From positions 1 through 64,000 of the forward strand of contig JAOBWK010000036.1 in assembly GCA_025463305.1 (NCBI GenBank): a DNA stretch of 64,000 nucleotides, read 5' to 3'. Position 1 is the stretch's first letter, and every line of letters begins with the position of its first letter. The translations under genes were made by a program, and so were the position numbers. Below, piece by piece: positions 7,483 through 11,085 of the stretch. The notes beneath the pieces were generated by a model. That model did not search any database. It was not told the DNA's origin and saw only the letters and a list, made by a program, of their open reading frames with translations. This DNA comes from Ilumatobacteraceae bacterium. Lineage in GTDB: Bacteria; Actinomycetota; Acidimicrobiia; Acidimicrobiales; Ilumatobacteraceae.

Positions 7483-8916
7483 GTGTCGGGTGCACGCAGG
7501 AGCATTCGGGGCCCGCGCCTCGGCTCTCGGCGTCCGCGACGCGACAGTGGGTTCTCCTACGTCGAGGTCCTCGTGTCGGTGCTGCTCCTCGGTACGGCGG
7601 GCGTCGCGGTGCTCGGCGCGGCCGCCCAGACGGGCCGTGGAGCGACGGTGCTGCGCACCCAGTCCGACGTGCAGACCGCGCTCGCGGCCACCTCCGATGC
7701 ACTGAACGGCATCACGCCGGTGGCGTGCGCGACGGCGGCGAGCAGCTACCAGACCGCCGCCCGTACCCGCTTCGACACGCTCGGCCTGCAGCGCGGCTGG
7801 ACGAACGCCGCAGTCACCGTCACCAACGTGCAGTCCTTCAACCCGACGTCGCACGCCTTCGACTCCGGCTGCACGTCGGCCGGGGCGACCCAGAAGGTCA
7901 CCATCACGATCACCGCGCCCGACGGCTCCACGAAGAGCATCGACGTGCTGACCGGCTCGGCCACCGCGACCACACCGATCGGCAACCCGCTCGCGTTCGC
8001 CAACAGCCAGTTCTCGGTGATCGCCCAGGGCGACGTCACCATCGCCGGCACCCAGGTGTACGGCGCGCTCGCCGTCGGCGGGAACCTCACGTTCAACGGC
8101 CAGGGCCCGATCGCGGCCAACTCCACGGGCACCTTCGGGGCGGTGCTCGGCGCCAACAACAACATCGGGCTGATCGTCGACGGCTCGGTCAACTTCACCG
8201 CCAGCAGCAACGTGCTCTACGTGAACTCCGGTGCCGCGGCTGTCATCGGCGACATGACGAACGGCAAGTACATCGCCCCCGGCGGCACGAACTGCTTCGT
8301 CGCTTCCACGACGGCCACGCAGTGCGCGCCGAAGGAGATCGCGATGCAGAACGGCGGCAACGTCGTGACCGGTCATCCGTTCGACTTCGCCGCGGCGTTC
8401 GATGCGTACAAGAAGACGTCGACAGCGCTCGGTCAACTGCCCGGGACCTGCGTGAACGCGGCATCGGCCGTGCTGCGCGACCAGAACAACGCCGGGCCGT
8501 GGCCGGGCAGCGGCAACTTCACGCTCATCCTCACGTCCGGCAAGGCGAACACGCTGAACCTCACCGCCGCGCAGGTCAACTCGATGGCCGGCTCCTCGGC
8601 GGTCGGCAGCAGCAGCTCCGCCTCGAACAGCACACCGCTCATCATCAACGTCCTCGACGCCGGCTCGGTGTCGTTCAACGTGCCCAACTTCCCCCAGAAC
8701 TACCCCCGCTCGGTGATCTGGAACTTCCCCAACGCCACTGCGGTCACGTTCAACGGCGCACTGTGGGGATCGCTCTACGCGCCGCTCGCCGCCGTCACCC
8801 TCACCTCCGACGTGCGTGGCGTCGTCATCGGCGGCTCGGTGATCGGCAACGGGGGAGTGGCCGACTGGTCGAACCGGCCCGACATCGCCGACATCATCTG
8901 CGACCGGGCGGCATGA
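7483..8916 (+). CDS. Prepilin-like protein with choice-of-anchor-A-like surface domain (first of pair)
   Basis: This is a predicted exported surface protein of 477 residues. A short basic leader ends in RRDSG, followed by FSYVEVLVSVLLLGTAGVAV: the type III (prepilin peptidase) cleavage motif G|F with Glu at mature +5 and one hydrophobic helix. A pilin-sized segment with paired cysteines follows. From about residue 165 to the end comes a beta-rich domain that matches my recollection of the choice-of-anchor A family: an early IAGTQVYGALAVGGNLTF and a late VIWNFPNATAVTFNGALWG, then LYAPLAAV and VVIGGSVIGNGG. The GTG at 7483 has a perfect GGAGG 5 bases upstream (7473-7477); an ATG at 7423 with GAGG is an alternative. 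It is the first gene of a three-gene run. Confidence 0.8.
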   Translation: MSGARRSIRGPRLGSRRPRRDSGFSYVEVLVSVLLLGTAGVAVLGAAAQTGRGATVLRTQSDVQTALAATSDALNGITPVACATAASSYQTAARTRFDTLGLQRGWTNAAVTVTNVQSFNPTSHAFDSGCTSAGATQKVTITITAPDGSTKSIDVLTGSATATTPIGNPLAFANSQFSVIAQGDVTIAGTQVYGALAVGGNLTFNGQGPIAANSTGTFGAVLGANNNIGLIVDGSVNFTASSNVLYVNSGAAAVIGDMTNGKYIAPGGTNCFVASTTATQCAPKEIAMQNGGNVVTGHPFDFAAAFDAYKKTSTALGQLPGTCVNAASAVLRDQNNAGPWPGSGNFTLILTSGKANTLNLTAAQVNSMAGSSAVGSSSSASNSTPLIINVLDAGSVSFNVPNFPQNYPRSVIWNFPNATAVTFNGALWGSLYAPLAAVTLTSDVRGVVIGGSVIGNGGVADWSNRPDIADIICDRAA

Positions 8917-8917
8917 C

Positions 8918-10624
8918 GTGATCGACTCCTCGCGCTCCGCGCCGCGGGGTCACAGCGACCGCGGCTTCACGCTCATCGAGCTCGTCGTCGCCGTCACCAT
9001 CGTCGGCATGCTGTCGGTGGCCGTCCTCGGTGGCATCACCAGCATCCTGCGCACCGTGCCGTTGAACACCCGCAACATCGGCGAGTCGCACGATCAGCAG
9101 CAGCTGCTCAACTACTTCGTGCCCGACGTCCGCTCGACGGCGCCGGGCTCGGTCGACAGCACGCCCACGGCCGGCGGGTGCACGGGGGCCGACGCCGGCG
9201 TCAACGTCGCCCAGCTGACCTGGCTCAGCGGTGGCACCACCTCTCGGTCCAGCTACCGCGTCATCACCGTCGCCGGTGTGTCCCGCCTCGATCGTTACGT
9301 GTGCACCGGCACCAGCGCCACCACCCTCGGCGCGCCGACCATCATCAACATCCTCGACACCATCGATCCCGTGCCGACCAACTGGTCCGGCGGCACGGCA
9401 CCCGCGTACATCACCACGTCGGGCAACGTGGTGACCTTGAAGGTGACCCAGAGCGCCACGAAGCGCACGCTCTCGGTCGCGAGCACATTGCGCTCGGACG
9501 TCAGCACCCTGGTAGCACCGACGGGCACGACGACCGCGGCCACCACGACGACGGTGGCCGCGACCACGACGACCGCTGCGGCGACCACGACCACGGCTTC
9601 CCCGACGACCACGACGACAGCAGCAACGACCACGACCACAGCCGCCGCGACGACCACGACGGCGGCCGCGACGACCACCACGGTGGCCGCCAACTCCGGC
9701 ACTCCGCTGAATCCGGTGGCTGCGGCGCAGGGGTTCATGGTGATGACGTCGGGCAACGCGCTGATCCAGGTCAGCAGCCTCCAGGGCGGCGTCGCCGCAG
9801 GCGGCAACCTCTCGTTCAAGAACTACGAGAACATCGCCACGAGCGCGCCGTCGAGCTTCGCCGTGTCGGGCGAGTCAGCCGCCACGGGCCTGATGGTCGG
9901 TGGCACCGTCGACTGGACGAGCAGCAGCGGCTCGCAGCTCACCGTGGCGAACGGCCTCGCCCACACTGGCACGCTCACCAGCGGCAGCGTCCTCACGTTC
10001 GGTACGAACGTCCACATCGTCGCCCCGAACATCACCGACAACTACACGACGCCACGGATCGTCGTCTCGGCCGACCAATCGAACCAGACCACCAACGCGG
10101 TCCAACGCCCCGGTGCGTTCCTGTTCGCATCCGCCTTCACGACACTGCGGAACAGCTCGGCCAAGCTCGCTGCGCTGAACCCCACCACGTGCTCGGCGAT
10201 CGCCTACCCCTCTGTCACCCAGGCCTACGGCAACTACACGCTCACGCTCGTGGCCGGGAAGGTGAACGTCTGGAACGTCTCGGTCGCCGACCTCAATGCG
10301 ATGGCGAACCTCACCAGCCCGTCCAACCCCGACGCGACGACGAAGCTCGTCGTCAACGTCACCGATTACGGCAGCATCACCCTGCCCACCCGCTACTGGA
10401 GCACGCTCCAGAACGGGCAGAAGTCGAGCATCCTCTGGAACGTCCCGAACGCCACGGCGGTGTCGGTGAGCAACGCGATCTACGGCACGCTGTTCGCCCC
10501 GAACGCCGACGTCACCGCCAGCGGGATGCAGCTGTACGGCGACCTGATCGCCAAGACGCTCAGCACCAACGGCGGCGATTCCACCCTCGCCCACTTCGAC
10601 ACGAGCGTGCCATGCGTCGGGTGA
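8918..10624 (+). CDS. Prepilin-like protein with Thr/Ala linker and choice-of-anchor-A-like domain (second of pair)
   Basis: This 568-residue protein is built like its upstream neighbour. A basic leader ends in SDRG, then comes the textbook prepilin motif FTLIELVVAVTIVGMLSVAV with Glu+5. A pilin-like globular stretch (to about residue 200) leads into a low-complexity Thr/Ala linker (about residues 205-262). The C-terminal half has the choice-of-anchor-A-like pattern: SSLQGGVAAGGNLSF, YGNYTLTLVAGKVNVWN, LVVNVTDYGSITL, then SSILWNVPNATAVSVS, GTLFAPNADV and LYGDLIAK. It begins 1 bp after the stop of the first gene, so the two are translationally coupled. No pilus motor, platform or prepilin peptidase gene lies in the window. 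Confidence 0.85.
   Translation: MIDSSRSAPRGHSDRGFTLIELVVAVTIVGMLSVAVLGGITSILRTVPLNTRNIGESHDQQQLLNYFVPDVRSTAPGSVDSTPTAGGCTGADAGVNVAQLTWLSGGTTSRSSYRVITVAGVSRLDRYVCTGTSATTLGAPTIINILDTIDPVPTNWSGGTAPAYITTSGNVVTLKVTQSATKRTLSVASTLRSDVSTLVAPTGTTTAATTTTVAATTTTAAATTTTASPTTTTTAATTTTTAAATTTTAAATTTTVAANSGTPLNPVAAAQGFMVMTSGNALIQVSSLQGGVAAGGNLSFKNYENIATSAPSSFAVSGESAATGLMVGGTVDWTSSSGSQLTVANGLAHTGTLTSGSVLTFGTNVHIVAPNITDNYTTPRIVVSADQSNQTTNAVQRPGAFLFASAFTTLRNSSAKLAALNPTTCSAIAYPSVTQAYGNYTLTLVAGKVNVWNVSVADLNAMANLTSPSNPDATTKLVVNVTDYGSITLPTRYWSTLQNGQKSSILWNVPNATAVSVSNAIYGTLFAPNADVTASGMQLYGDLIAKTLSTNGGDSTLAHFDTSVPCVG
9529..9692 (+). repeat. Low-complexity ACG/ACC-GCG tract encoding Thr/Ala linker
   Basis: About 160 bp of imperfect repeats of ACGACCACG-type triplets encode blocks such as AATTTT and AAATTTT, about seven times over. 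It forms the hinge between the pilin module and the surface domain. Such tracts can change length by slippage, which would alter how far the distal domain reaches. Confidence 0.85.
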
Positions 10625-11085
10625 GCAACCGTCCGGCCGTGGCGAACCGAGCCGAAGTCGAGCCGCAACGCGACCAGGGGGCGATCCTGGTGCTGGTCCT
10701 CGTCCTGTGCCTGATCCTCGGCGTCGTCGTGGTCGGCGTGGCCAACTACGCGACGGCCGGACTGCGCGGCACTCGGGCCACCCAGGCCCGGAACCTGCGC
10801 ACGAGCTCGGTCGACGGCGGGCTGCGTCTCGGCGTCGAACTGATGAAGCAGGCGCCGTCGCAATGCTCGTCGAGCATGACGATCCCGGCCATCAACGGCC
10901 TCACGATCAGCCTCAGCTGCGCCGCGAACGGCACCGCGAACACGGCCTGGGTACCGTACCGGTTGATCGCCACGACGTCGGCCGGTGGACGCGCCATCGC
11001 CGACATCCAGGTGAGCACCGTCGGATCCACGCCGTGTACGGCGGCGTGCACGGTGACGATCAACTCGTGGTCGATCTCCACGTGA
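10621..11085 (+). CDS. PilX-like minor pilin / pseudopilin
   Basis: This is a small single-helix membrane-anchored protein of 154 residues. A charged N-terminus ending in RDQG precedes AILVLVLVLCLILGVVVVGV. It then runs RGTRATQARNLRTSSVDGG, like the PilX N-terminal family (helix, then an amphipathic segment with Arg and small residues). It lacks the Phe+1 and Glu+5 of classical pilins, as PilX-type minor pilins often do. Four cysteines in two pairs (C86 and C98; C141 and C145, counting from this start) could form disulfides. The GTG at 10621 overlaps the previous stop as GTGA; an ATG at 10612 is also in frame. It is the last gene of the prepilin operon. Confidence 0.72.
   Translation: MSNRPAVANRAEVEPQRDQGAILVLVLVLCLILGVVVVGVANYATAGLRGTRATQARNLRTSSVDGGLRLGVELMKQAPSQCSSSMTIPAINGLTISLSCAANGTANTAWVPYRLIATTSAGGRAIADIQVSTVGSTPCTAACTVTINSWSIST

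Follow-up and report, generated by a model that had tools for sequence, protein, structure and literature searches.

Choice-of-anchor A domains on two adjacent pilin-like proteins of an Ilumatobacteraceae bacterium, a candidate adhesive tip of a type IVa pilus

The choice-of-anchor A family comprises surface proteins whose name implies a C-terminal sorting signal or transmembrane anchor. Pilins that bear a grafted binding head are a separate, already known theme. Streptococcus sanguinis PilB and PilC are described, in the available text of PMC8179133 and PMC9934059, as pilin stems with a C-terminal binding module, and the two are modelled with a third minor pilin in one tip complex. A solenoid pilin is likewise known: ComZ of Thermus thermophilus (PMC6561018, PDB 6qvi), reported as a pilin with a beta-solenoid like that of FfIBP and proposed to lie at the tip. 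Here, we describe a cluster of three genes in a 64,000-nucleotide stretch (the window) of contig JAOBWK010000036.1 from an Ilumatobacteraceae bacterium (GCA_025463305.1), in which two neighbouring proteins, PilV-like and PilW-like, both have a prepilin signal at the start and a choice-of-anchor A domain at the end.

The cluster departs from each of these systems. The S. sanguinis modules are reported to be of the vWA and concanavalin-like lectin kinds, whereas here one kind of module sits on both proteins and the genes are PilV-, PilW- and PilX-like. ComZ 6qvi is a structural match of our PilV-like model, but its solenoid is described as lying inside the pilin sheet, where that of our model appears C-terminal, it is a single such protein, it binds DNA, and it has no sequence match in the window. 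Conventional choice-of-anchor A members share the domain above the TIGR04215 or PF20597 cut-off; an example from Ilumatobacter fluminis (L061 4740-6302) has a signal peptide and an LPSTG C-terminus, in contrast to the N-terminal pilin anchor of the window proteins. The tapirins of Caldicellulosiruptor (PDB 6n2c, 4wa0, 6n2b) are more distant still, the window proteins giving no NF051896 match at E up to 1.

What is new is the choice-of-anchor A module on a pilin, its presence on both of two partner proteins, and the switch of anchor within one genome. Our literature searches found no account of such a head on a pilin, and Dataset S1 of PMC8179133, which covers 264 modular pilin architectures, may include one; 'modular pilin' and 'ice-binding' were not found together in any of the papers searched. 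The first-pass annotation of this DNA, made from the letters alone, had proposed pilus-borne adhesins of a kind with no described system. Its idea of pilins and adhesins finds support, but the claim of novelty was too strong given the published PilB, PilC and ComZ.

Prepilin signals and C-terminal domains of the cluster

The features of the cluster are as follows.

7483..8916, + strand: PilV-like (I-type) putative modular minor pilin; GTG start at 7483, 477 residues; motif Gly at 7549, helix over residues 26-74, a pilin head that extends to about residue 156 and a predicted beta-solenoid after it
8002..8865, + strand: choice-of-anchor A / pAdhesive_15 domain of the PilV-like protein (PF20597 residues 174-459, TIGR04215 176-461)
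8918..10624, + strand: PilW-like (J-type) putative modular minor pilin; GTG start at 8918, 568 residues; motif Gly at 8963, with a Thr/Ala stalk and a choice-of-anchor A domain
9518..9703, + strand: Thr/Ala-rich stalk of the PilW-like protein (residues 201-262)
9713..10597, + strand: choice-of-anchor A / pAdhesive_15 domain of the PilW-like protein (PF20597 residues 266-553, TIGR04215 272-560)
10612..11085, + strand: PilX-like (K-type) putative minor pilin; 157 residues, without Glu at position 5

Both large proteins carry a class III signal, consisting of a basic leader, Gly, a hydrophobic stretch and Glu at +5. In the PilW-like protein (HSDR-G, then FTLIELVVAVTIVG) it is recognised above cut-off by PF07963 N_methyl (2e-7) and TIGR02532 (4.2e-7). 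The PilV-like signal (RRDS-G, then FSYVEVLVSVLLLG) gave no N_methyl match in Pfam and NCBIfam model searches and rests on conservation together with a match to TIGR02523 PilV (6.4e-5) below cut-off. The complete motif stands at the same position in nine of 12 database relatives; the other three sequences begin just past the Gly (P0023), begin within the helix (P0026) or have no N-terminus (P0029). A chance motif was considered and rejected, as a six-frame motif scan of the window returned only these two open reading frames (ORFs). No cluster protein matched the PilW family models at E up to 1 (Pfam, NCBIfam) and none of the I-, J- and K-type members rose above the cut-off of its own PilV, PilW or PilX model; we therefore name them only as 'like' these families.

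The C-terminal assignments are strong. TIGR04215 scored 111.4 bits (6.1e-32) for the PilV-like and 127.4 bits (7.7e-37) for the PilW-like protein against a cut-off of 29, and PF20597 scored 130.6 bits (1.2e-37) and 129.3 bits (3.1e-37) against 23.8. We found no C-terminal sorting signal or transmembrane anchor in either protein: they stop 16 and 8 residues past the domain with no hydrophobic tail. The stalk of the PilW-like protein holds 35 Thr and 18 Ala among its 62 residues.

In the structure model of the PilV-like protein, a pilin is followed by a beta-solenoid of the ice-binding-protein fold, which comes after three pilin strands and whose final strand stops at residue 461 of the 477. The N-terminus is modelled as a single helix, with a predicted local distance difference test score (pLDDT) below 50 at residues 34-54. 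A model of the PilW-like protein was discarded for low confidence, and by homology its head would adopt the same solenoid. Another reading is that these are ice-binding pili. The structural alignments of the PilV-like model have 10-18% identity, a common fold shows no function, and besides PF20597 no Pfam ice-binding family matched at E up to 1; we consider ice as the ligand highly improbable.

Most of what the first-pass annotation had read here was borne out: a prepilin motif opening both proteins, a choice-of-anchor A domain closing them, a Thr/Ala stalk in one, an N-terminal pilin helix as anchor in place of a C-terminal signal and, in the PilV-like model, a beta-helix fold. Its single helix holds for the PilV-like model, with the low-confidence residues noted, and the PilW-like model is too poor to use. 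It had missed the third, PilX-like gene.

That protein has a hydrophobic stretch after the Gly without Glu5 (QGAILVLVLVL), and K-type subunits without Glu5 are described in the available text of PMC9934059. Its gene aligns to a PilX-like protein of I. fluminis (tblastn, 7.5e-5 over 160 residues); the match to Pfam PilX_N was not significant (E 0.17) and NCBIfam gave none. The PilV- and PilW-like genes abut, and the PilW- and PilX-like genes share 13 bases. Upstream, on the opposite strand, lies an F420-dependent oxidoreductase gene, and downstream an HD-domain gene. A scan for promoters and terminators gave 0 and 2 sites, compared with 0.3 and 1.5 in shuffles.

Recurrence of the fusion in the Ilumatobacter fluminis family

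The fusion of a prepilin start to a choice-of-anchor A domain was found again in metagenome proteins. A search with the PilV-like protein returned 13 proteins including itself, and PF20597 is present in all 12 relatives. The PilW-like search returned 18 including itself; among the 17 others, three have both N_methyl and PF20597, one has PF20597 with an LPQTG-type end, and 13 are without PF20597. Automatic names from the Joint Genome Institute already give both domains for three proteins (P0002, P0027, P0030), and P0013 matches a protein of I. fluminis (genome G034) exactly through its 541 residues, apart from the start letter.

Across the I. fluminis family, PF20597 occurs at 16 places in 10 of 221 genomes, and at nine of these a prepilin signal stands in frame ahead of the domain: three in I. 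fluminis, two in G766 and one each in G771, G864, G863 and G767. One further place (G770) is cut by a contig end near the expected helix, three have conventional ends (G034, G707, G769) and three are fragments (one in G772, two in G767). A class-wide draw, in which starts were checked from ORF lengths and the six-domain seed profile was too narrow for distant members, gave 19 places in 15 of 395 genomes. Five are pilin fusions of the family set and one is the LPSTG copy; the remaining 13 have no typical prepilin start, two lying weakly behind other pilin-like starts and the rest behind signal-peptide-like or unclear ones. The fusion is therefore confined, in these samples, to the I. fluminis family together with the window and its metagenome relatives.

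Several weaker candidates were noted. L142 (G1033) and L143 (G980) have weak pAdhesive_15 matches (6.5e-6 and 2.6e-5) behind PilX-like and TadG-like N-termini, and may point to further pilus-type carriers or be chance matches. Two class-wide motif matches were discounted as far from the N-terminus (residues 234 and 243), as were L091 and L094 from a loose motif scan, whose stretches are not hydrophobic helices. A scan of genome contigs with the PilV-type alignment gave 27 loci at which no pilin stem was seen, since no tblastn match begins before query residue 148.

Of the 46 domains in our tree, the 13 PilV-fused rows fall in a single clade (100/99), the window PilW-type domain clusters with P0002, P0004 and the giant prepilins described below (100/100), and seven I. 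fluminis-type PilW domains form a separate clade (98/97). Recent duplication of the domain between the two window proteins was not supported: their domains are 32% identical and fall in different well-supported clades. Three changes between pilin and conventional carriers are needed on this tree; as it is unrooted, gains and losses of the pilin carrier are not separable. Its rows are no even sample, having been found with the window proteins as queries or selected by us. They leave out P0003, L014 and L015 (below 150 residues), G769 and G707 (no seed-profile match), nine of the 27 contig-scan loci (L005, L006, L008-L010, L024-L027) and the new class-wide loci.

The order PilV-, PilW-, PilX-like is kept in all seven clusters compared, ending each time in a K-type pilin without Glu5. 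The G770, G772 and giant-prepilin loci are outside this comparison, and some PilV-like partners in it (L060 7147-7689, L101 4470-5465) are named by motif and position only, with no Pfam match. In two clusters, the PilV-like partner carries, in place of the choice-of-anchor A domain, the cellulose-binding domain CBM2 (L060 11739-12878, 9.8e-17; L101 9060-10190, 2.2e-18). A CBM2 match below cut-off was also seen on a PilX-like pilin (L060 9171-10172) in a choice-of-anchor A pilin cluster. The I. fluminis genome holds three pilin-anchored choice-of-anchor A proteins beside one LPSTG-anchored copy, a natural comparison of what the anchor is for.

A putative adhesive pilus tip

We found no credible pilus machinery in the window (tblastn with the PilB, PilC, PilD and PilT-like proteins of I. 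fluminis; best match 0.021). In I. fluminis, one locus (L132) groups PilD, PilC and PilB with a further T2SSE ATPase, called PilT-like by its place. PilB-like matches occur in five of six and six of six genomes searched and are strong (E <1e-130) in five of six and five of six, with none of them, nor any of 14 control genomes, passing the TIGR02538 cut-off; peptidase A24 matches occur in five of six and three of three. G639, which by ilvA (79%) is the closest among 397 genomes of the order, has both PilB and peptidase.

The proteins might instead be secretion-type pseudopilins, or membrane-held surface proteins outside any long pilus, with the pilin helix as one more anchor. Pilin and pseudopilin N-termini are alike, the GspI, GspJ and GspG models match the PilW-like protein weakly (0.014, 0.02 and 0.1), and no machinery adjoins the cluster. 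By contrast, a PilT-like ATPase plus PilB in I. fluminis fits a retractable pilus, the stalk and large heads fit display, and the modular S. sanguinis pilins are reported as pilus subunits (PMC9934059). We regard this alternative as distinctly unlikely.

By analogy with S. sanguinis PilABC and ComZ, we propose that the cluster encodes modular minor pilins which are likely to sit at the tip of a type IVa pilus and act there as adhesins. The three genes would form a tip set of PilV-like (I), PilW-like (J) and PilX-like (K) subunits, probably produced together from their abutting and overlapping genes. A prepilin peptidase would cut after the Gly and the helices would join the filament by the usual pilin interface. 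The I and J subunits would each end in a choice-of-anchor A solenoid (modelled for I, by homology for J), that of J raised on the Thr/Ala stalk. A tip position fits the bulky heads best, and since K, I and J subunits are thought to start the filament, two adhesive heads would come to lie at the tip, where a PilT-type motor could retract whatever they hold.

Such pili probably serve to hold on to something outside the cell. A DNA receptor is one alternative, the solenoid heads catching DNA at the tip for natural transformation as in ComZ, with which they share a solenoid on a pilin. Against it, no window protein matches ComZ in sequence, the ComZ solenoid sits between the final two strands of the pilin whereas here it appears C-terminal in the model, sister clusters place CBM2 on the PilV-like partner, and the sole choice-of-anchor A protein with a glycan-binding test in the available text bound cellulose. 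We regard DNA capture as unlikely, though not negligible. The more plausible ligand would be a cellulose- or chitin-like extracellular polysaccharide, although we hold polysaccharide binding itself to be an even call. In the available text on the Acanthamoeba choice-of-anchor A lectin, the whole protein bound cellulose as a maltose-binding protein fusion and partly as green fluorescent protein fusions, and chitin variably; tapirins are reported to bind cellulose, as are Ruminococcus albus pili (PMC13234629), and CBM2 modules occur in clusters of this kind.

Since the Acanthamoeba test used more than the domain, and the heads may instead lie along the shaft, we set the odds of tip adhesion and of a polysaccharide ligand slightly lower. 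G766, which has two fusions and is assembled in more than 200 contigs, gave no PilB or peptidase match, which either counts against the proposal and for the pseudopilin alternative or reflects an assembly gap.

A wider version of the tip-adhesin proposal is tentative, and we put it somewhat short of even. Here the tip would be a retractable, two-clawed one, with the I and J initiators both using the solenoid as a polysaccharide grip. The module would move among sortase, membrane and pilin carriers and share pilin positions with CBM2, PA14 and lectin, and Acidimicrobiia would thereby re-tool their pili for different particles. Adhesion by type IV pili is still little understood, and this cluster offers a well-defined module on two neighbouring minor pilins. 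Broad literature searches returned no study of the pili of these actinobacterial relatives among the matches listed; the actinobacterial pili studied by 2019 are, in the available text of a review (PMC6916266), of another subtype, Tfpc.

Modules on other large prepilins

We collected 24 large prepilins of at least 320 residues, with L060, L150 and L152 among the loci covered, and scanned 20, leaving out three of L060 and one duplicate. Six of the 20 have an extra recognised domain above cut-off (VWA, fn3, cadherin-like/Big_9, ricin lectin, carboxypeptidase-regulatory, PKD), and therefore other modules are also grafted onto prepilins in these samples; the other 14 have none, some being cut at the locus end. 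The module-bearing proteins come from phylum and order samples (L040, L052, L069, L070, L071, L077). The N-terminus of a PilX-like protein (L060 14353-14868) matched that of the tapirin model NF051896 far below cut-off (E 0.024), which might mean that tapirins have a pilin-like start, or be chance.

Giant prepilins occur in three genomes: L107 4758-8936, L108 4980-8489 (open end) and L109 3813-8171. L108 reaches 1170 residues before a contig end cuts it, the others are 1393 and 1453 residues long, and the two that were scanned (L107, L109) hold Ig-like repeats, pAdhesive_15 and PA14. A small major-type pilin lies near them. In all three genomes a pilB-like gene stands about 3 kb from the giant prepilin and another pilB-like gene elsewhere, perhaps marking a second, dedicated pilus.
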